DNA of 64,000 nucleotides. It comes from Ktedonobacterales bacterium (GTDB lineage Bacteria > Chloroflexota > Ktedonobacteria > Ktedonobacterales > DATBGS01). Under the pieces are notes generated by a model. The model searched no databases and was not told the DNA's origin. It saw only the letters and a list, made by a program, of their open reading frames with translations. This document shows, in pieces, positions 251 through 61,571 of the stretch. The number at the start of each line of letters is the position of its first letter. Positions within the stretch are counted from its first letter, which is position 1. The DNA lies in assembly GCA_036557285.1 (NCBI GenBank), contig DATBHW010000034.1:1-64000 (forward strand), read 5' to 3'. The translations under genes were made by a program, and so were the position numbers.

Positions 251-1462
251 ATGAGCGACCAGAATCCTTTCTTGCAACAGAGCGCCTTGAATGGCCCGCT
301 CGAACTGGCGTTCTGCCAGCAGATCTACTATCTGGCGTTGCATCGAGCGGTACGGGGGCGAGCTTCTGAGGTCCTTCCGGCGGGCCTGCCCATGGCCGAG
401 TTGCGTCATTTTGCATGCCGCTATGGTGCTACGAGCCTGGTAAGCGACCTGGCAACGGTCGAGCAGGTCTTTCAAGGAGTCACGCTAGCGGTCTATCAGG
501 CTATTGAGGCGATCTATTGCTGTCGTCCAAGTCGCAGCGCGCGCGTGGTCTGGCAGATCTTACAGGCAATGGCCAGCGATGCGGGTGTGGCGGGGCTGAC
601 CTACGAGGCTGTGTGGGCCATGTGCGAGTACCTGCAGGCCAAGCGGGAGGCTGCAGTTGCCGTCACCTGCGAGGTCAGCCCCGAGCCGTGGTGGTTGATT
701 GAATTGCGTCCGGCGGTGCTGCTCCAGGATGAGGAGTTGGATCGCTATGCCCCTTCCCTCATGTGTATCCTGGAAGCCCACCCGCCACGGATCCTCGCTT
801 TCTGCGTTGTGCGTCCGGAGGCCGTACAGGAAGGCGCAGCACTGGCGCTCTTCCAGGCCCTGATTGTCCAGCGCGTCCCAGCCCGCACTGCCGCTGCCGG
901 ATTACGCTGGCGGCTGCCCAGCCAGCTTCGGAGTGAAGTAGCGCTCAGCGCCCAGTGCCGACAGGCGTGTGCTACTCTTCCCCTCGCCATTGAGGAGATG
1001 GGAGCCCAGCGGTGCCCCTTGCCGACAGAACTCCAACGGCCGTGGGAGCGAGATCTGAGCGGGCGCAACCTTTCGCGGCAGCAGTTTGCCCTGCTGTTTG
1101 ATAGCTACCTGGCGAAGTTTCTGGGTGGCGGACCGTTACGAACCCAACGGGCATGCGATCTCCAGTTTGTCCGGCTGAAAGGCTATTCCAGAGAACCGAC
1201 CTGGCAGTTTCCTGCACTGCGCCAGCTACTTCCGCATCGCTCAGCCCACATTGGCGCAGATGGGAGCATTGTCTATGATGGACTGCATTATGTCGATGAT
1301 TTGCTGACCTGCTGGCTGGAGCAAGACGTCACGTTGGTGCAATTCCCCACCGCGGAGGCGTGGGCCTGGGTCTATCAGAATGATGAGTTCCTCTGTCAAG
1401 TCGGAGCACGGGAATTGCGTCGACGGGATGGTTCCTATCGGCCGAATCGACCAGGGAGGTGA
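251..1462 (+). CDS. Mu/TnsB-type transposase C-terminal-domain protein, probably non-catalytic
   Basis: This 403-residue protein is not a standard family member. Residues about 318-395 (FPALRQLL, then YDGLHY, a Trp, VYQNDEFLCQV and a basic tail) resemble the beta-barrel Mu transposase C-terminal domain of MuA/TnsB/IstA-like proteins. Residues about 165-205 (PSLMCILEAHPPRILAF and a following helix) resemble the second strand region of an integrase core. I cannot find a convincing DDE triad, and the spacing is too short for an intact core, so it is either a decayed transposase or a domesticated DNA-binding relative. The next ORF starts 4 bases after its stop, with its ribosome site GGAGGT overlapping the end of this gene, which implies translational coupling. 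The domain call is by eye. Confidence 0.4.
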   Translation: MSDQNPFLQQSALNGPLELAFCQQIYYLALHRAVRGRASEVLPAGLPMAELRHFACRYGATSLVSDLATVEQVFQGVTLAVYQAIEAIYCCRPSRSARVVWQILQAMASDAGVAGLTYEAVWAMCEYLQAKREAAVAVTCEVSPEPWWLIELRPAVLLQDEELDRYAPSLMCILEAHPPRILAFCVVRPEAVQEGAALALFQALIVQRVPARTAAAGLRWRLPSQLRSEVALSAQCRQACATLPLAIEEMGAQRCPLPTELQRPWERDLSGRNLSRQQFALLFDSYLAKFLGGGPLRTQRACDLQFVRLKGYSREPTWQFPALRQLLPHRSAHIGADGSIVYDGLHYVDDLLTCWLEQDVTLVQFPTAEAWAWVYQNDEFLCQVGARELRRRDGSYRPNRPGR

Positions 1463-1465
1463 AAG

Positions 1466-1690
1466 GTGTACTTTGTAGCGATGCTCCTGAAGCTCCATCC
1501 AGTCGGCGAGGCACCACCTCTTTCGGTGTCTGACGGAGTTTATGCCCACGCCGCGCTCCTGCATACCATCAGCACTGCTGACGCCAAGGCAGGACGCGTG
1601 CTGCATGAGATGCACCACCAGAAGTGGATGACACTTGCGCTCTTAGAGCGTGTTATGCACTTTTACGAAGGCAGTTCACGTCCGGGCTAA
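1466..1690 (+). pseudogene. cas6-like CRISPR endoribonuclease, N-terminal fragment
   Basis: The first 60 or so residues read like the N-terminal half of a Cas6 RAMP domain: a hydrophobic first strand, Pro-rich turn, the helix YAHAALLHTIS with the following Asp, then VLHEMHHQKWMTLALL, matching the usual 'D..a..lH....K..T...L' pattern. Cas6 proteins normally have 200-270 residues. Here the reading frame runs into an inverted-repeat element after LALLE and stops at residue 74, and nothing Cas6-like resumes beyond it. GTG is the start, with GGAGGT placed 5 bases upstream. No CRISPR repeats are visible. The family call rests on a short segment and could be wrong. Confidence 0.45.
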
Positions 1691-20370: not shown

Positions 20371-20480
20371 GGTGTTGGCAAGCGAGACCTGTTACTGGTA
20401 GCGCCGCCATCTTGGCGGCTCAACGCTGGCCGCCTCCCAGGCGGCGCTACAAGTGGCAACCCCCGATAGTTGGTGGAACC
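20353..20480 (+). mobile_element. Composite repeat element 1 (128 bp), 9-bp target duplication
   Basis: It starts GGTTCTACCAAAAAATGAGG and ends GATAGTTGGTGGAACC. The 9-bp sequence AGCAAAGAT lies immediately outside both ends (20344-20352 and 20481-20489). The interior is one forward and one reverse CGCCGCC hairpin unit. This is the shortest copy in the window. It overlaps the end of the methyltransferase gene. Confidence 0.85.
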
Positions 20481-39287: not shown

Positions 39288-39303
39288 TGTTTCACGTGAA
39301 ACA
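39288..39303. other. parS site 1
   Basis: Exact TGTTTCACGTGAAACA, the consensus centromere-like sequence bound by ParB (Spo0J) in most bacteria. Confidence 0.95.
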
Positions 39304-39316
39304 CTTTTTCCATCCC

Positions 39317-39364
39317 AGCAAGCGTTCAGATATGTTTCACGTGAAACATATCTGAACGCTTGCT
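39317..39364. other. parS site 2 inside a perfect 48-bp palindrome
   Basis: The exact parS core (39333-39348) is extended on both sides by 16 bases of perfect dyad symmetry beginning AGCAAGCGTTCAGATA. ParB needs only the 16-bp core, so the extension calls for another explanation: a convergent terminator, cruciform, or accessory contact. Confidence 0.95.
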
Positions 39365-39365
39365 A

Positions 39366-39381
39366 TGTTCCACGTGAAACA
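39366..39381. other. parS site 3 (one-base variant)
   Basis: TGTTCCACGTGAAACA, with a single change from the consensus in the left arm. Confidence 0.85.
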
Positions 39382-39411
39382 CGTTTTCACGATTCCTCAC
39401 CAGCGCGCCAG

Positions 39412-39963
39412 CTAATGATGCGCAGCAAGCGCCGCTGGCGAAGGCGCGTCATCGGGCAGCAGCACATACATCCCCGCGTAGAACGGGCGCACATACGGCG
39501 GAATCAAACGCATATCGGCCATCATCCCACTCGCCAGCCCCGCGTACATCTCCCAATCGTTGCGGTCCACCAGCAGGCCCGCCCAACCACGCTCAGGAAT
39601 CCCATGTATGTATTCGTAGGCCAGTTTCGCCATCCGCTCATAGCGCGAATCAGTCTCCTGGGAAAGCTTGATCGTCGTCTCGATCATCGCGTCTTCCTCG
39701 CCGACGCGCCGAAAGTGGCGCCAGGCATGCGCCAGTTCATGAATCGCCGCCTCATACTGCGCCGTATACAAAAAGACCTTGTTCTGCTCAGGATACCAGA
39801 AGCCACCGCCGCGCGTGCTGTGCAAATCTTCCACCTCGAAATCCACCATCGTTCGCAGCCAGTCTTTGGCCTCTTCCCGATAGGGAAACGTCGCCAGCAC
39901 CTCCTCACGAAACGCCGCCACCTCTGGATTCACTACCGCTGAAAGACGTGATCGCTCTGCCAT
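39412..39963 (-). CDS. Zincin-like metallopeptidase-fold protein
   Basis: A 183-residue protein containing HELAHAWRH near residue 76, the HExxH zinc-peptidase signature. A later acidic helix could supply the third ligand (EDAMIETTIKLSQETDSRYERMAKL). The surrounding sequence (AFREEVLATFPYREEAKDWL, VFLYTAQYEAAIHELAHAW) is reminiscent of anthrax-lethal-factor/Mop-like zincins without clear membership. There is no signal peptide, so it is likely cytoplasmic. It is enclosed by parS sites on both sides (three to the left, three to the right), an intimate but probably positional association. No AGGAGG lies close to the start. Confidence 0.6.
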   Translation of the reverse strand: MAERSRLSAVVNPEVAAFREEVLATFPYREEAKDWLRTMVDFEVEDLHSTRGGGFWYPEQNKVFLYTAQYEAAIHELAHAWRHFRRVGEEDAMIETTIKLSQETDSRYERMAKLAYEYIHGIPERGWAGLLVDRNDWEMYAGLASGMMADMRLIPPYVRPFYAGMYVLLPDDAPSPAALAAHH

Positions 39964-40027
39964 CTCGATCTGCTCCTTGAGTCGCTGCTCCTCGCGCTCC
40001 TTCCAACTTTATACAACCGATCAGATA

Positions 40028-40043
40028 TGTTTCACGTGAAACA
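40028..40043. other. parS site 4
   Basis: Exact consensus. It lies in a roughly 38-bp stretch (TATACAACCGATCAGATA... onward) duplicated at site 6. Confidence 0.95.
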
Positions 40044-40082
40044 TATCCGCACGCTTGGATAGTCAGCTCATGATGAATGGAG

Positions 40083-40098
40083 TGTTTCACGTGAAACA
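40083..40098. other. parS site 5
   Basis: Exact TGTTTCACGTGAAACA, followed by a T-rich run. Confidence 0.95.
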
Positions 40099-40135
40099 TT
40101 TTTTATCAATCTGATGCTATACAACCGATCAGATA

Positions 40136-40151
40136 TGTTTCACGTGAAACA
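40136..40151. other. parS site 6
   Basis: Exact consensus in a duplicated context shared with site 4. Confidence 0.95.
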
Positions 40152-40181
40152 TATCTGAGTGCTTGGCACGCGCTAAAGTGT

Positions 40182-40439
40182 GGTTCCACCAATTATCGGG
40201 GGCCACTGGTAGCGCCGCCTTCCAGGCGGCTAACGCTGCGCCAGGGCGAGCGTTCGCCCTCCAGGCCAGCGGACCAGCAGGCCAACGCTGGCCGCCAAGA
40301 AGGGACGCGCGAGCGACCAACGGAAGCGAGCATGGCCGCGCCCAGCGCGGTCAAGCGGCTCTGGCGAAGCCCTTCCCGAAGGGAGGCGGCGCTGCAAGTA
40401 CCACGCCTCGCTTGCCAACACCTCAGATTTGGTAGAACC
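40182..40439 (-). mobile_element. Composite repeat element 4 (258 bp) inserted beside a parS site
   Basis: In this orientation it opens GGTTCCACCAATTATCGGGG and closes CTCAGATTTGGTAGAACC. CTAAAGTGT flanks both ends (40173-40181, 40440-40448). The right-hand duplicate supplies the first three bases of parS site 7, so the insertion hit the edge of that site and left it intact. The interior contains a forward unit, GGAAGCGAGCATGG-type spacer modules and a GGCGGCGCTGCAAG unit. Confidence 0.85.
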
Positions 40440-40445
40440 CTAAAG

Positions 40446-40461
40446 TGTTTCACGTGAAACA
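40446..40461. other. parS site 7
   Basis: Exact consensus, adjoining the composite element, just upstream of the GH31 gene. Confidence 0.95.
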
Positions 40462-40518
40462 TTTTACGCCATATGCTACCATCTATACCAACAGGCCATT
40501 AAGAAGGAGAACACGTGC

Positions 40519-43098
40519 ATGTCCGAAGCCCAACCGCCAGACTCGCCAGAAGAAGCGTCCCGCGCGCTGGCTCGCCCTGGCGCTGCCCCTCAGCCCACCT
40601 CCATTGACATCGGCCCCGCTGTCCTGACTGGCCGCGAGGGCCGCTGCTTCACCTTTACCGCCAGCGAGAGCCGCGCCCGCGTGCGCCTGACCATCCTGGC
40701 GGCTGATCTGGCGCGCGTGGACCTGCTGCCGGAGGGCCAGCAGGAGCCGCCGCGCTCCTGGGCCGTCGCTGAGCCAGAAGACGCCTGGCCGCTGGTTCCG
40801 CTGGAGGTCGAAGAAGCGCCAGATACCAGCCTGATCATTCGCGCGCCCGACATGGCGATCAGGGTTTCGCTCGCGCCCGAAGCGTTTCGCCTGGCGTTCT
40901 TCAACAGCGAAGGCGTCTTGCTCAGCGCGGATGCGCCCGACGCCCTGAGCATCACGCGGCAAGACCCAGGCCCGACACCCGCTATCGTACAGCGCGGCGA
41001 ATGGGGAACGCGCTGCGCCAAAGTCCTGACGCCGGACGAGCATCTTTTTGGCTTCGGCGAACGCACCGGCCCAATGAACAAACGCGGCTCGCGCTTCCTG
41101 CTCTGGAACACCGATCCGCTGGGGCCGCACGACGATAAAACCTGGGCCATGTATGCCGCGATCCCCTTCTTCCTGAGCGTGCGCGAGCAGCCACCGCTGA
41201 CCTATGGCATCTTTCTGGATAGCCCCGCCCTGACTGAGTTCGATCTGGGCGCTGCGCAGCCAGACCGCCTGACCTTTGGCGTGGGCGCGGGCGAAGGCGC
41301 GCTGACCTACTATTTCTTTGCGGGCACCGGCGAAGAGGCGTTGCAGACGATCCTGGCGCGCTACACCCGGCTCACCGGGCGCATGCCCTTGCCGCCGCGC
41401 TGGGCGCTGGGCAATCATCAGTGCCGCTGGAGCTACTATCCTGATAGCTGGGTGCGTAAGCTGGCCCGCGAGTTTCGCGCCCGCCAGATACCCTGCGACG
41501 CGCTCTGGCTGGACATTGACTATATGGACGGCTACCGCGACTTCACCTGGCATCCGCAGCGATTCCCCGACCCGCAGGGGCTGATCGCTGACCTCCACGA
41601 GCAGGGCTTTCGCGTCGTCACCATCCTTGATCCCGGCGTCAAGCAAGACCCGACGTATGCGGTCTATCAAGAGGGCGTGCGCCAGGGCTATTTCTGCGCG
41701 CTGCCGGACGGCCAGGTCTTTCATGGCCCCGTCTGGCCGGGTATGGCGGCTTTCCCTGACTTCAGCCGCCCCGACGTGCGCAGGTGGTGGGGCGATCTGC
41801 ACACGGCGCTGCTGGACGTGGGGGTGGATGGCATCTGGAACGATATGAACGAGCCGTCGCTGACCAGCCAGCTTGCCCCCGAACTGAATATACCCTGGGG
41901 CAGCACGCTGCCCCCGCAGGCGCGGCATGGCCCAGAGACAGGCGCGCTGCCGCATCTGGCTTTCCACAACGCCTATGGCTCGATGATGGCGCGGGCCGCC
42001 CGCGAAGGGCTGGAACGGCTGCGGCCTGATGAGCGTCCTTTCGTGCTGACGCGCTCGGCTTACGCGGGCGTGCAGCGTTACGCCGCGCTCTGGACGGGCG
42101 ATAACTCCAGCATGTGGGAGCATCTGCGGCTGGCGATACCAATGTGCCTCAATATCGGGCTATCGGGCGTGGGGTTCGTGGGCGTGGATGTGGGCGGCTT
42201 CTGGGGCAGCGGCAACGCCGAACTGCTGACGCGTTGGACACAGCTTGGCGCGCTGCTGCCGTTCTGCCGCAACCACAGCAGCGCCCACACGATCCACCAG
42301 GAACCCTGGGCATTTGGCGAACCCTATGAGAGCATCAACCGCCGCTACCTGGAACTGCGCTATCGGCTGCTGCCCTATCTGACGACGCTCTTTTACGAAG
42401 CGGCGACGACTGGCGCGCCGATTATGCGCCCGCTTCTCTGGCACGCGCTCAACGATCAGAGCGCCTGGGAGATCGAGGATGAGTTTCTGCTGGGGCGCGA
42501 TCTGCTGGCCGCGCCGGTCTATGAGCCAGGAGCCAGCACGCGCCGCCTGTATCTGCCTGCTGGCGAGTGGGCCTATTTCTGGTCGGGCGAGCGTTTTCAT
42601 GGTCCGGCCTGGGTCGAGGTTCGCGCGCCGCTGGATGAACTGCCCCTGTTCGTGCGCGCCGGAGCCTTCTTGCCGCTGGGGCCGGTGATGCAGCATACAG
42701 GCGAGCGCGCCAGCGACCCGTTGACGCTGGCGCTCTACGTGCCAATGACTGATGGCGCGGGGGTATCTACGCTGTACGAGGATGACGGCCTGAGCAACGA
42801 GTATCGCAATGGGGCATTCTGCCTGACACGCTCCGGCTTTGCCTGGCAGGTGTCCGGCAGGCTTTCGATTACGCTAGAGCCGCCAGACGGCTCCTACCGG
42901 ACTGAGCGCCACCAGCTTCAGCTAGAGGTTCATCTGCCCTTTGCGGCCAGCCGAGCACAGCCGCGTATACGGAGTGTGCTGCTGAATAAAGAGGCGCTAG
43001 AGGGCTGGCAGGCGCGCCCGACGCGCAATGAGGTGATCGTGACGCTCTCTCTGGACGAGACCAGGGAGGCGCGAATAGTAGAGGTAATGTTAAGCTAG
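40519..43098 (+). CDS. Glycoside hydrolase family 31 alpha-glucosidase
   Basis: An 859-residue GH31 enzyme of full length. It has an N-terminal beta-sandwich (to about 270), then the catalytic barrel with PRWALGNHQCRWSYYPDSW, LDIDYMDGYRDFTWH, the nucleophile Asp in DGIWNDMNEPS (near residue 442) and the acid/base Asp in WTGDNSSMWEHL (near 528). Distal sandwich domains include GRDLLAAPVYEPGA and YEDDGLSNEY. It hydrolyses alpha-glucosides from the non-reducing end, probably in the cytoplasm because no signal peptide is seen. The ATG follows AAGGAG. Its stop codon lies within the palindrome around parS site 8. Confidence 0.95.
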   Translation: MSEAQPPDSPEEASRALARPGAAPQPTSIDIGPAVLTGREGRCFTFTASESRARVRLTILAADLARVDLLPEGQQEPPRSWAVAEPEDAWPLVPLEVEEAPDTSLIIRAPDMAIRVSLAPEAFRLAFFNSEGVLLSADAPDALSITRQDPGPTPAIVQRGEWGTRCAKVLTPDEHLFGFGERTGPMNKRGSRFLLWNTDPLGPHDDKTWAMYAAIPFFLSVREQPPLTYGIFLDSPALTEFDLGAAQPDRLTFGVGAGEGALTYYFFAGTGEEALQTILARYTRLTGRMPLPPRWALGNHQCRWSYYPDSWVRKLAREFRARQIPCDALWLDIDYMDGYRDFTWHPQRFPDPQGLIADLHEQGFRVVTILDPGVKQDPTYAVYQEGVRQGYFCALPDGQVFHGPVWPGMAAFPDFSRPDVRRWWGDLHTALLDVGVDGIWNDMNEPSLTSQLAPELNIPWGSTLPPQARHGPETGALPHLAFHNAYGSMMARAAREGLERLRPDERPFVLTRSAYAGVQRYAALWTGDNSSMWEHLRLAIPMCLNIGLSGVGFVGVDVGGFWGSGNAELLTRWTQLGALLPFCRNHSSAHTIHQEPWAFGEPYESINRRYLELRYRLLPYLTTLFYEAATTGAPIMRPLLWHALNDQSAWEIEDEFLLGRDLLAAPVYEPGASTRRLYLPAGEWAYFWSGERFHGPAWVEVRAPLDELPLFVRAGAFLPLGPVMQHTGERASDPLTLALYVPMTDGAGVSTLYEDDGLSNEYRNGAFCLTRSGFAWQVSGRLSITLEPPDGSYRTERHQLQLEVHLPFAASRAQPRIRSVLLNKEALEGWQARPTRNEVIVTLSLDETREARIVEVMLS

Positions 43099-43142
43099 CG
43101 AGCAGTAGTGTTTCACGTGAAACACTACTGCTCGCTAGCTTA
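43091..43142. other. parS site 8 inside a perfect 52-bp palindrome
   Basis: The exact parS core (43109-43124) sits at the centre of a 52-bp perfect dyad that includes the last codons and stop of the GH31 gene. As it stands between convergent genes it may also terminate transcription. Confidence 0.95.
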
Positions 43143-50165: not shown

Positions 50166-50193
50166 TTGACGGTGAGCAAAAAGCGCCTATAGT
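50166..50193 (+). promoter_or_regulatory. Promoter of leader copy C, overlapped by a DnaA box
   Basis: TTGACG, 16 bases, TATAGT. The last base of the -10 is the first base of a DnaA box. Confidence 0.65.
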
Positions 50194-50242
50194 TATCCAC
50201 AAGTTGTTGCGGATTGCGCAGTTGTGGATAACTACAGGCGCT
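50182..50242. promoter_or_regulatory. Inverted repeat carrying two perfect DnaA boxes
   Basis: Two 21-base arms (50182-50202 and 50222-50242) pair with one mismatch. Each contains TTATCCACA, the high-affinity DnaA box, at 50193-50201 and, inverted, 50223-50231. As RNA it forms the 5' helix of leader copy C; as DNA it would bind DnaA over the promoter. Confidence 0.75.
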
Positions 50243-50470
50243 ATGGCATGGCGCCAGGGTGCAAAAGACACCGCAAGCGCCATTGACCCCACATCTGGTA
50301 CGAGCCAGTGGACGGGGCTGGAAGATTCTATCATCTTTGAGATGATGATTTCTCAGCGGCCACCTGCTGGCAGGGCATACCGTACAGGCCAGAGGTGGCC
50401 GCTTCGTATGCGGCCACTGGGGAGAAATGCCGGGGATTGGCAGAGTTATCCACAAGCATGTGTGTGTTGG
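50200..50470 (+). ncRNA. Structured leader RNA, copy C
   Basis: After the 5' helix come ATGGCGC/GCGCCAT, CCCC (50287-50290) with GGGG (50314-50317) around TCTGG/CCAGT, and the core GATTCTATCATC (50324-50335). A small CATC/GATG hairpin follows, then the long helix AGCGGCCACCT (50355-50365) with AGGTGGCCGCT (50393-50403) containing an inner CTGG/CCAG. Compared with copy A, the helix differs by a compensated G-C to A-T change, supporting base-pairing. Confidence 0.7.
50446..50454 (+). promoter_or_regulatory. Third DnaA box
   Basis: Perfect TTATCCACA, about 215 bases downstream of the paired boxes and 170 bases before the antirepressor-like gene. Confidence 0.7.
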
Positions 50471-50473
50471 GGC

Positions 50474-50600
50474 AAAGGGGGTGTCGAATGGACACCCCCT
50501 TGGGCAAAGGGGGTCTATAATGTAGACCCCCTTACCATAAAAGTTGCCCGAATTACGGACCCCCTTTGGCAAAGGGGGTCTGGATTACGGACCCCCTTAC
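50474..50600. promoter_or_regulatory. Array of three palindromes before the antirepressor-like gene
   Basis: AAGGGGGTGTC-GAATG-GACACCCCCTT and AAGGGGGTCTA-TAATG-TAGACCCCCTT are perfect 11-5-11 palindromes with different arm ends. A third related one (AAGGGGGTC...GACCCCCTT, 50572-50598) ends 20 bases before the start codon. They may be operators, mRNA hairpins, or both. The second places a TATAAT at its centre. Confidence 0.7.
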
Positions 50601-50617: not shown

Positions 50618-51313
50618 ATGTCAGAAACCGAACTCATTCCGGTGGCACAGGCTGAATTGAAGGTAGCGAGCGTATCATTGATTGCTGTTCTTTTGCCTGA
50701 TGGGCAAACCGGTGCTGTCCTCTCGATGCTCTGCGAGGCATTAGACCTGCGAACTCGCAGCCAGGCACAAAAGCTACGTACCCATCCGGTACTGTCTCTG
50801 GCCCTGGTTCTGGCTAAAATAGAGACGGCAGGCGGGGAACAGGTGGTCAATGTCTTGCTGTCGTGGGGCGTTCCCTTATGGCTTGCGAGCATCCGCGCTG
50901 GAGGGCGTTCCCCCGCTTACCGAGAACGATTATTGACCATGCAGCGTGAAGTGGCCGCCGCGCTGTGTCGGCAGTTCTTCTCTAATCTGTCTACAAACAC
51001 TCCAACTTCTTCCACTTCCCCTGGAGAGCCATCTGAGACACTTCTCTCATCGCCCTGGCAGGCATTGCATGCTGCTCTGTCGGCGTTAGAGGCGTCACTA
51101 GATGCCGACGCGCTGGCGGTGGGCGGACGGCTGGCGGCGCTGGAGGCGCAGGCAGCACAATCGTCAGCAAGCGAGCATAATCATGTGAGCCAAGAGCGTT
51201 TGTTGGCGGCGGCGATTGAGCGATTGCTTGTGCATGAGCGCCGGTTGAACAGGCTGAAAGGGCGAGGCCCACAGAAGAGGCGGCGCGGGAAGGCGCGCCG
51301 CTTTGGCAGGTGA
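50618..51313 (+). CDS. Phage-antirepressor-N-like DNA-binding protein (P22_AR_N), paralogue 1
   Basis: A 231-residue protein. Residues 1-95 (LIAVLLPDGQTGAVLSMLCEALDLRTRSQAQKLRTHPVL...VLLSWGVPLWLASI) match the layout of the P22 antirepressor N-terminal domain. A helical, coiled-coil-like segment (SALEASLDADALAVGGRLAALEAQ) and a very basic tail (KGRGPQKRRRGKARR) follow. In phages this domain belongs to antirepressors; here it lacks an antirepressor C-terminus and no phage genes are nearby, so it is probably a domesticated regulator. ATG after AGAGGAG. A paralogue with the same gene structure lies at 60.35-61.13 kb. Confidence 0.65.
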   Translation: MSETELIPVAQAELKVASVSLIAVLLPDGQTGAVLSMLCEALDLRTRSQAQKLRTHPVLSLALVLAKIETAGGEQVVNVLLSWGVPLWLASIRAGGRSPAYRERLLTMQREVAAALCRQFFSNLSTNTPTSSTSPGEPSETLLSSPWQALHAALSALEASLDADALAVGGRLAALEAQAAQSSASEHNHVSQERLLAAAIERLLVHERRLNRLKGRGPQKRRRGKARRFGR

Positions 51314-51380: not shown

Positions 51381-51731
51381 AGTTCCACCACCTATCGGGG
51401 GTTGCCACTTGTAGCGCCGCCCCCCTGCGGGAAGGGCTTCGCCAGAGCCGCTTGACCCCCCCTTTGGGGAGCGGCCCTTGCGGGAACCCGGCCTGCGGCC
51501 TGGGCTGCTTGCCTCGGCTGGTGCCCCGTCCTCTCGCTCCCGTTGGTCGCTCGCGCGTCCCTCCTGGCGACTCAACGTTGGCCTGTTGGTCCGGTGGCCT
51601 GAAGGGCGCACGCTCGCGCTGGCGCAGCGGTGGCCGCCTGGAAGGCGGCGCTACAAGTGGCGGTGGCCGCCTGGAAGGCGGCGCTACAAGTACCATGCCT
51701 CGCTTGCCACCACCTCATGTTTGCTAGAACC
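51381..51731 (-). mobile_element. Composite repeat element 5 (351 bp), 9-bp target duplication
   Basis: It reads AGTTCCACCACCTATCGGGG at the left and CATGTTTGCTAGAACC at the right. GTTCGGGAG flanks it (51372-51380, 51732-51740). It is the longest copy: the interior has a forward unit, GGAACCCGGCCTGCGGCC and CTCGCTCCCGTTGG modules and two reverse units in tandem. It lies just upstream of the SPFH gene's promoter. Confidence 0.85.
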
Positions 51732-55512: not shown

Positions 55513-55785
55513 AATCGCGGCTGGAGGCGGCGCTACAAGGGGCGGGTCGGTTGTTCCACCACCTATCGGGGGTTGCCCCTTGTAGCGCCGCCATCTTGGC
55601 GGCTCAACGCTGGCCTGCTGGTGTGCTAGCCCGCAGGGCAAACGCTCGCCCTGGCGCAGCGGTAGCCGCCTGGAAGGCGGCGCTACAAGGGGCGTTCGCG
55701 TGGATACGCGGCGGTGGGCCGCCTGGAAGGCGGCGCTACGGGCTGGCCGCCGAGACGGCGGCGCTACGAGTGGCTGGCCGTTTGT
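55505..55785. repeat. Hairpin repeats with a truncated composite element
   Basis: From 55552 it reads TGTTCCACCACCTATCGGGG, the right-end sequence of the composite elements, followed by a forward unit. The other end is missing, and reverse units run to 55785. No 9-bp duplication can be found, so this is a broken copy. Confidence 0.75.
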
Positions 55786-60352: not shown

Positions 60353-61129
60353 CTATTGCAGACTGTCGAACCAGTCGAGGACGGCAGGCCAGGCGCTTTC
60401 GGGCAGGTCGGAAACGTCCTCGACCTCGAAGTGGTCGGCCAGCCCGGCCAGCGTTTCACCGATGGGCAGGCCCTGGCTGGCGCGCAGCTGGCGCGCCAGC
60501 AGGTAGATTTGCTTTAGCCGCTGCCCAGAATAGGCCACAATGGGCCGCGCTGGCCCGCCTTCCAGCGTGGTGACGCGCTCTTCGAGGTGTTGCTGGGTCT
60601 CTTCCACTGCCGCCAGACGGGCGCCTACCTCCTGCTGGTCTGCATGCGGCTGGCGGCGCAGCACCTCAAACTCACTTTCCAGGTGATGCAGGAAGGCATG
60701 CCCTTCCTGCCAGACGGATTGAGGCGCTGAAGCCTGGCTGGGAGGAGGCGGGACATTCGCATTGGCCGCTCGCTCGGCAAAGGCTCGTTCAATCAGGTCA
60801 ACAGCCTTTTGCTGCAATGCCAACGATACTGGTTGTTTTGCCTCCGGCAACCGAGAAACTTGCAGACCAGCAGCCCAGATAGGAATCGCCCAATGGAGTA
60901 AGACGTGCATTTCTATAGTGGTACTTCCAAACGGCATTGGCACTAAGACTAGAGCCTGAGAAAGCTTGGGATGCCTTCTCACACGAGCAAGCTGGCTGCT
61001 AAAATCGATGTCTAGAATCCGACATAAGGAGCGCAGTGTGGCCCCCAGCCGTCCATCAGGAAGTTGTAGAACATCAATTGGCGGAATCGTCGCCCCAATG
61101 CGAACCGGGATGAGCGTCAGGTTCATCAT
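60353..61129 (-). CDS. Phage-antirepressor-N-like protein (P22_AR_N), paralogue 2
   Basis: A 258-residue paralogue of the gene at 50.6 kb. The first 95 residues align in order (LIPVRIGATIPPIDVLQLPDGRLGATLRSLCRILDIDFSSQLARVRRHPKLSQALV...VLLHWAIPIWAAGL). A central helical segment (WQEGHAFLHHLESEFEVL) and a coiled coil (RLAAVEETQQHLEERVTTLEGG) follow. The C-terminal region QRLKQIYLLARQLRASQGLPIG resembles antirepressor/KilA-C-type helices. It is more complete than paralogue 1. No AGGAGG lies close to ATG at 61129. It is preceded by palindromes and a structured leader, as is paralogue 1. Confidence 0.65.
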   Translation of the reverse strand: MMNLTLIPVRIGATIPPIDVLQLPDGRLGATLRSLCRILDIDFSSQLARVRRHPKLSQALVLVPMPFGSTTIEMHVLLHWAIPIWAAGLQVSRLPEAKQPVSLALQQKAVDLIERAFAERAANANVPPPPSQASAPQSVWQEGHAFLHHLESEFEVLRRQPHADQQEVGARLAAVEETQQHLEERVTTLEGGPARPIVAYSGQRLKQIYLLARQLRASQGLPIGETLAGLADHFEVEDVSDLPESAWPAVLDWFDSLQ

Positions 61130-61161: not shown

Positions 61162-61220
61162 GGTCATGGTCATTATAACCATGACCTGTGGTCGTTATGA
61201 CCATGACCTATGGTCATAAC
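61162..61220. promoter_or_regulatory. Palindrome pair before antirepressor-like paralogue 2
   Basis: GTTATGACCAT-GACCT-ATGGTCATAAC (61194-61220) is a perfect 11-5-11 palindrome. GGTCATGGT...ACCATGACC (61162-61186) has 9-bp arms around a TATAAT on the minus strand. The geometry is the same as the array in front of paralogue 1, with unrelated sequence. Confidence 0.7.
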
Positions 61221-61261: not shown

Positions 61262-61536
61262 GTTCTCTGCCTCCTTAGTGTGATCTCGCGCAGGCGGCGC
61301 TGGAAGTGAAACGGCCATCCCCTGATGCGCGCGGGCCAGGCGATAGGCTGTTCGCCTGGGTGCTCAGGAGATGGCCGCTGAGAGGGGGAAACTCTATCGG
61401 GTGATAGAATGCTCCCAGCCCCATGCCCGGCGTTGGTCAGGAGTGGGGTGAGTGGCGCTGCCAGCGATTGGTACTGGCGGCGCTACGTGGTATAGTTGAG
61501 TTGTCAAGGTGCGCGGCGCGGTTGGTTGGGAATGCT
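61262..61536 (-). ncRNA. Structured leader RNA, copy D
   Basis: Read on the minus strand: a helix GCGC-GCCAG/CTGGC-GCGC, CCCC (61448-61445) with GGGG (61422-61419) around CCTG/CGGG, and the core CATTCTATCA (61411-61402). The long helix AGCGGCCATC-TCCTGA (61379-61364) pairs with TCAGG-GATGGCCG (61325-61311), enclosing CCAGGCGA/TCGCCTGG. The helix matches copies A and C in position but differs by paired substitutions. Confidence 0.65.
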
Positions 61537-61542
61537 GAGTAG

Positions 61543-61571
61543 AGTATACCGGCTGATTGGGTAGAAGTCAA
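61543..61571 (-). promoter_or_regulatory. Promoter of leader copy D
   Basis: TTGACT, 17 bases, TATACT on the minus strand. Confidence 0.75.

Follow-up and report, generated by a model that had tools for sequence, protein, structure and literature searches.

Palindrome arrays before chromosomal P22_AR_N genes of a Ktedonobacterales bacterium suggest autoregulators that read their own operators

Self-repressing phage regulators have several spaced operator dyads before their own gene, and classical antirepressors act on repressor proteins. Proteins annotated "phage antirepressor N-terminal domain" form a large family whose binding targets are little known; their P22_AR_N domain (Pfam PF10547) we take to be homologous to BRO-N. 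The Bro domain of corynephage P1201 ANT8 is reported to confer DNA binding (PMC4257102), and the DNA sequence recognised by the related KilA-N domain is described as little known outside fungi (PMC4862756). PCG2 is reported to touch DNA through helix B and through its wing motif, QXGXGXXQ, whose glutamines and glycines read the DNA (PMC4333399).

Here we analyse P22_AR_N paralogues in the 5.1-Mb draft genome of a soil-type bacterium of the order Ktedonobacterales. Six PF10547 matches were found in this genome at E ≤ 1, four of them on contig C34 and two on C32; the window, the whole stretch of DNA that was analysed, comprises the first 64,000 nucleotides of C34 (C34:1-64000). The initial annotation had pointed to palindromes before two of these genes, the first of which has the following features:

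50166..50193, forward strand: σ70-like promoter (TTGACG-16-TATAGT), some 430 bp upstream of paralogue.1
50248..50423, forward strand: conserved leader element before paralogue.1
50475-50501: unit 1 of array 1, a palindrome with 11/11 pairs
50507-50533: palindrome unit 2, 11/11 pairs, with its centre TATAAT at 50516-50521
50540-50566: slot of unit 3, 7/11 pairs, left half decayed and right half intact
50572-50598: palindrome unit 4, 10/11 pairs, with its centre 33 bp 5′ of the start codon
50618..51313, forward strand: paralogue.1 (P22_AR_N, 231 aa), a wHTH-like domain at residues 10-120 followed by coiled-coil helices

Array 1 (50475-50598) thus holds four slots of a 27-bp palindrome with an 11-5-11 layout directly 5′ of the gene at 50618-51313, confirming the palindromes, one centred on TATAAT, that had been described there: two are complete, one lacks a single pair and the decayed slot comes in addition. 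Between 50460 and 50620, four matches to the 11-5-11 layout reached at least 10/11 pairs, compared with 0.005 expected from shuffles of the same region, and the pattern AAGGGGGT-N11-ACCCCCTT matched three times in the window against 0.02 in shuffles. Paralogue.1 belongs to the P22_AR_N family by its score (40.3 bits against PF10547, above the gathering cut-off of 30.7) and matches Ant in PHROGs (phrog_524, E = 4.2 × 10−6).

The second gene lies on the opposite strand and has these features:

60353..61129, reverse strand: paralogue.6 (258 aa), with a wing lacking GG.Q
61162-61186: 25-bp palindrome of array 2, TATAAT-centred, 9/11 pairs in the 11-5-11 register
61194-61220: perfect 27-bp palindrome named in the initial annotation, spanning two neighbouring ATAAY centres
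61292..61500, reverse strand: conserved leader element before paralogue.6
61543..61571, reverse strand: σ70-like promoter TTGACT-17-TATACT before paralogue.6

An array and a perfect 27-mer do exist here, as had been claimed, but the 27-mer joins two centres: the centres of array 2 (61216-61220, 61194-61198 and 61172-61176) follow a 22-bp period, and a full palindrome is present only at the last of them (TATAAT, 61172-61176). With a period of 32 bp in array 1 and 22 bp in array 2, and with the 27-mer falling between two centres, the arrays are alike in style rather than, as had been proposed, in geometry. The arms also contrast, reading AAGGGG at paralogue.5 and GGTCATGG at paralogue.6. At 20.0 bits (E = 7.9 × 10−4), paralogue.6 scores below the PF10547 cut-off of 30.7 as a single protein, and it has no match in PHROGs; NCBIfam gave nothing useful. 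Its alignment with the remaining five paralogues leads us to class it as a diverged relative and not as a curated PF10547 member, and the earlier description of the two genes as paralogues was right, given the PF10547 profile matches and the six copies in the genome.

Extending the survey to the further paralogues, as the initial annotation had suggested, we found large palindromes 5′ of all six genes, with several units before five of them and a single 26-bp palindrome of other sequence before paralogue.3. The pattern AAGGGG-N15-CCCCTT occurs at exactly ten sites in 5.1 Mb, three before paralogue.1, three before.4 and four before.5, and nowhere else, which is the placement expected of own operators; a reversed-pattern control gave no site in the genome. 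Start distances between these sites are 32 bp in the.4 and.5 arrays, and 32 and 65 bp in the.1 array. The ten sites were selected without regard to inner symmetry, and symmetry holds for 44 of the 50 pairs in their inner arms, compared with 35% across sites (permutation P = 5 × 10−5). Among the six paralogues, arms of the AGGGG type accompany the four that have GG.Q; the palindromes of.3 and.6, which lack GG.Q, are of other kinds. Inner arms vary among the units of one array, which a single narrow specificity does not predict and which counts against autoregulation. Their similarity was 0.53 within arrays and 0.33 between arrays (P = 0.006), or 0.45 and 0.32 once duplicates were removed (P = 0.07), and no inner arm is common to two genes among the arrays of four genes.

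PF10547 matches were present in 20 of 47 genomes of the order at E ≤ 0.001 and in 44 of 400 genomes of the phylum at E ≤ 1 × 10−6, at loci that include Ktedonobacter racemifer DSM 44963. A set of 98 genes was assembled from 45 genes of the order and 53 of 54 further phylum rows, leaving out a 79-aa fragment with a stop (G235:C35); duplicates (L142-L148, L166, L176, L178-L180 and L182) were not counted. A palindrome of at least 10/11 pairs lay within 350 bp 5′ of the domain in 38 of the 98 genes (53 palindromes), compared with 4 of 98 for the 350 bp on the 3′ side and 1.05 in shuffles. As background, 4 of 47 long ORFs in the window have such a palindrome at most 250 bp upstream, two of the four via parS-like sites. 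Eight such TGTTTCACGTGAAACA sites, one with a mismatch, lie at 39288-43124, near the minimum of the cumulative GC skew (about 40-44 kb), and the window is therefore probably close to the replication origin.

In these relatives, the proximal palindrome centre often stands 28-34 bp 5′ of the start codon. Among 29 GGGG-type palindromes, positions 1-6 (AAGGGG) are conserved across genera, and positions 7-10 carry 0.08-0.43 bit yet are 79-93% symmetric, a figure favoured by the 9/11 selection; the centre is approximately ATNAY, in both orientations. This arrangement recurs on two viral contigs (L167 and L177) ahead of 73%-identical proteins, where the inner arms differ, and a Campylobacteraceae contig has a AAGGGGGT-type palindrome at −141. 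A palindrome centre, ACATATGT, is common to a Campylobacterota genome (L158, −141) and a Nitratiruptor phage (L186, about −145), 5′ of P22_AR_N genes in each; the distance to the start is about the same in the two, and their outer arms differ. No such palindrome was found at the P22_AR_N gene of P22, phage N7, Nitratiruptor phage NrS-3 or a Priestia plasmid; GG.Q is absent from the P22, N7 and NrS-3 proteins and present in that of the Priestia plasmid. When viral contigs were searched from the DNA side, a P22_AR_N-like ORF was close to 2 of the 171 AAGGGGGT...ACCCCCTT sites among the matches listed, one of these two sites being inside a gene, and the sole clear operator-like case among the 171 AAGGGGGT-type matches listed was L230, from the same phage as L167. 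Separately, a symmetric AAGGGG palindrome in another genome (L078, about 1480-1540; G004) stands before a minus-strand reading frame that by eye resembles the C-terminal part of the paralogues and from which the P22_AR_N domain is absent.

We then considered the protein. An AlphaFold2 model of paralogue.1 (26 sequences; pLDDT about 95 over residues 10-120) contains strands, a helix-turn-helix (35-41 and 46-55) and a β-hairpin (63-70 and 73-81) followed by long helices, with T70-A-G-G-E-Q75 at the turn of the hairpin. Foldseek found no significant match among solved structures (best E = 0.19), and sequence searches of solved structures yielded no convincing relative. Structural re-alignment gave middling top Z scores, of a size that below 8 may reflect a common arrangement: 4ye7 (9.4), Dachshund (7.2), SKI-like (6.9), DdrC (6.2), MBP1 (1bm8, 5.8) and PCG2-DNA (4ux5, 5.5), of which Dachshund, DdrC, MBP1 and PCG2-DNA are DNA-binding domains. 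The model is thus suggestive of a winged helix-turn-helix resembling APSES domains.

The palindrome arms track this putative wing. A palindrome of at least 9/11 pairs was present in 72 of 126 scored genes (of 129; G001.a, G003.b and G374.a have no residue at the reference column), and by an alignment-based count AGGGG arms occurred in 22 of 34 genes with GG.Q (12 without such arms) and in 1 of 38 genes without it (37 without such arms; Fisher P = 9 × 10−9, relatedness ignored), the motif having been defined after a scan that pointed to the wing. On a wing-masked tree, 18 disjoint contrasting pairs comprised 11 concordant, 1 discordant and 6 tied pairs (median of 300 random pairings; one-sided sign test, P = 0.003). 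The one AGGGG gene without GG.Q, G174.a, has six T after its palindrome and a terminator-like look, and the AGGGG palindrome is missing in 27 of 49 GG.Q genes. We also scanned all seven-column windows, with no prior choice of positions, in three gene sets. The strongest predictor of the full arm was the stretch of columns +18 to +26 counted from the invariant Q, at the turn of the hairpin (max-corrected P = 0.003, 0.0007 and 0.0023). For the inner arm it was columns −3 to +4, in helix B, in each of the sets, but this link did not survive correction over all windows (max-corrected P = 0.05, 0.11 and 0.11). A Mantel test over 24 genes, at positions picked after inspecting examples, related helix to inner arm (r = 0.22, P = 0.002; r = 0.21, P = 0.0036 after controlling for the remainder of the domain). 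Across the alignments, the outer arm co-varies with residues of the modelled wing, and the relation of helix to inner arm is suggestive only.

Taken together, we consider it probable that each paralogue is a DNA-binding autoregulator acting on predicted operators 5′ of its own gene, a reading that draws on the sites themselves, their exclusive placement, their symmetry and their co-variation with the protein. Binding, dimerisation, the assignment of residues to bases and the direction of regulation we infer as follows. The N-terminal P22_AR_N domain would adopt a winged helix-turn-helix fold like that of BRO-N, KilA-N and APSES domains, and dimers, presumably formed through the C-terminal coiled coil, would bind the palindromes that lie just ahead of the start codon of the gene encoding them. 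AAGGGG, the outer arm, would be the target of the wing (T-x-GG-x-Q), and the variable inner arm that of helix B; a paralogue whose wing or helix has changed would accordingly move on to other operators. With three to four sites spaced 32 bp apart, about three helical turns, dimers would sit side by side on one face of the DNA for cooperative self-control, limiting transcription into the gene by autorepression or as a roadblock. The earlier proposal that each protein has its own, diverged operator set is supported by the exclusive AAGGGG placement, the palindromes at six of six genes, the wing/outer-arm co-variation and the lack of any inner arm shared between the arrays of four genes, with weaker support from inner arm and helix. 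Points against autoregulation, besides the inner arms that vary within an array, are the many GG.Q genes lacking an AGGGG palindrome, the GG.Q protein of the Priestia plasmid that has no such palindrome, the helix/inner-arm link lost on correction, the scarcity of P22_AR_N-like ORFs near the viral sites among the matches listed, and, by eye, the missing −35 box before the proximal centres.

Other explanations assign the palindromes to something other than the adjacent protein. They could be operators of an unlinked regulator, with the P22_AR_N proteins as its targets or as antirepressors, as P22 ant is under Arc and Mnt; arc precedes ant in P22 and phage N7, an arc-family gene adjoins ant, and the idea fits the classical action of antirepressors on repressor proteins. 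We regard it as unlikely: no arc/mnt-like neighbour was seen among the flanking genes scanned, and the arms, which under an outside regulator should be common to the genes, change from one gene to the next in step with the wing that each encodes. Alternatively, the palindromes might act in mRNA as hairpins just 5′ of the Shine-Dalgarno site, controlling translation or mRNA stability, in keeping with their position downstream of a promoter-like site and ahead of the start codon and with proximal centres often 28-34 nt from the start. Among 112 palindromes of at least 9/11 pairs, however, G·T and A·C mismatches numbered 48 and 46, giving no sense-strand wobble bias, and RNA hairpins were rejected as the main reading on these mismatch types. 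Centre sequences moreover occur in both orientations, and units keep an exact 32-bp spacing in two arrays. Because RNA would favour G·U, the near-equal mismatches, taken with centres that occur either way round and with units repeating every 32 bp, point to duplex DNA as the target, and we consider a role in mRNA quite improbable.

Recognition of a cruciform or other DNA structure rather than of sequence, with complementarity kept for the structure or through quasipalindrome repair, would account for inner arms that differ within one array and yet remain symmetric; it seems very improbable to us, as the outer-arm sequence is conserved across genera and tracks a protein motif. Hardly credible is that the palindromes are terminator-like hairpins with no regulatory tie to the gene. 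A T tail follows 111 of the 171 viral sites of similar sequence among the matches listed, making those mostly terminator-like, but nine of the ten AAGGGG-N15-CCCCTT sites of this genome lack at least five T in eight positions, and tandem arrays of AAGGGG-type sequence occur only before paralogue genes.

Promoter-like sites lie further upstream. The TTGACG-16-TATAGT match before paralogue.1 is weak by itself, since 0.5 such matches are expected in shuffles; similar σ70-like promoters precede paralogues.4,.5 and.6 by eye. With these sites about 430 bp upstream, the autoregulatory array may serve as a roadblock or cover a second, unrecognised promoter. The proximal centre is at most a candidate σ70 −10 box, which it resembles (YATMAY), there being by eye no −35 element at 17 bp. 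The leader element recurs in L002, L004, L005, L061 (about 1424-1640) and L064 (about 1392-1622, reverse strand), stands before five of the six paralogues and two genes without a Pfam match, and combines a long stem, AGCGGCCAYCT...AGRTGGCCG, with the motif GCATTCTATCA. It has 26 predicted pairs, four with double changes, and is a possible structured RNA. No Rfam family matched in the window at the gathering threshold, the leader element included, and lenient Rfam searches of nine loci returned mostly chance-like miRNA matches to hairpins; L061 2789-2884 gave a T-box-like match of 64.6 bits, below the gathering threshold of 93. Sites resembling DnaA boxes (TTATCCACA), in part arranged as inverted pairs, occur before.1 (50182-50242 and 50446-50454) and.2 (L002, about 1184-1270), and the three exact sites of the window are all among those before.1. 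Interspersed GGCGGCGCTACAAGTGGC-type inverted repeats lie at 51404-51421, 51627-51691, 55526-55592 and 20394-20454, and in other parts of the genome that were inspected.

The flanking genes that were scanned, encoding a methyltransferase, Band_7, TrkA, Amidase_2, DUF4331, a glycosyltransferase and others, are ordinary chromosomal genes, and no arc/mnt-type or partner repressor gene was seen among them, so that the locus does not resemble a P22-type immunity region; the earlier likening to a phage-type switch thus finds no support.

A broader proposal, to which we give somewhat less than even chances, is that P22_AR_N, hitherto named for antirepression, serves as an operator-reading module whose code has two parts, wing (T-x-GG-x-Q) to the shared outer arm AAGGGG and helix B to a variable inner "address", and that yields orthogonal self-switches in Chloroflexota chromosomes. 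If true, the six copies, four on the parS-bearing contig, could form a family of autoregulatory modules that work independently and can be duplicated, and whose divergence in specificity is traceable within one genome. Many chromosomal and phage P22_AR_N copies would then have readable operators, with specificity predictable from two short protein stretches, and this would be the first recognition code for prokaryotic BRO-N/KilA-N-like domains.

Compared with described systems, the paralogues share their Pfam domain with P22 Ant, and some Chloroflexota and viral relatives have an ORF6C-like C-terminus, but they are chromosomal singletons or clusters in host DNA with no Arc/Mnt neighbours seen, and the GG.Q wing and AGGGG palindromes are absent from P22 and N7 Ant. 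BRO-N/ORF6C proteins, such as pneumococcal Bro and ANT8, have an analogous architecture and a different Pfam domain. The modelled fold of paralogue.1 may resemble the KilA-N/APSES winged helices of MBP1 (1bm8, Z 5.8) and PCG2 (4ux5, Z 5.5), at about 7% sequence identity and Z below 8, and with unrelated DNA site and organism. As in self-repressing phage regulators, several spaced dyads lie 5′ of the own gene; unlike there, no opposing repressor pair is seen and AAGGGG-type sites stand only before paralogue genes. In the literature searched, with most subscription journals outside its scope, we found no earlier report of a P22_AR_N operator reader with a wing/helix code. Self-controlling operator arrays are already known; what would be new is a P22_AR_N protein as the reader, a code divided between wing and helix, and a set of copies that have diverged within the chromosome.
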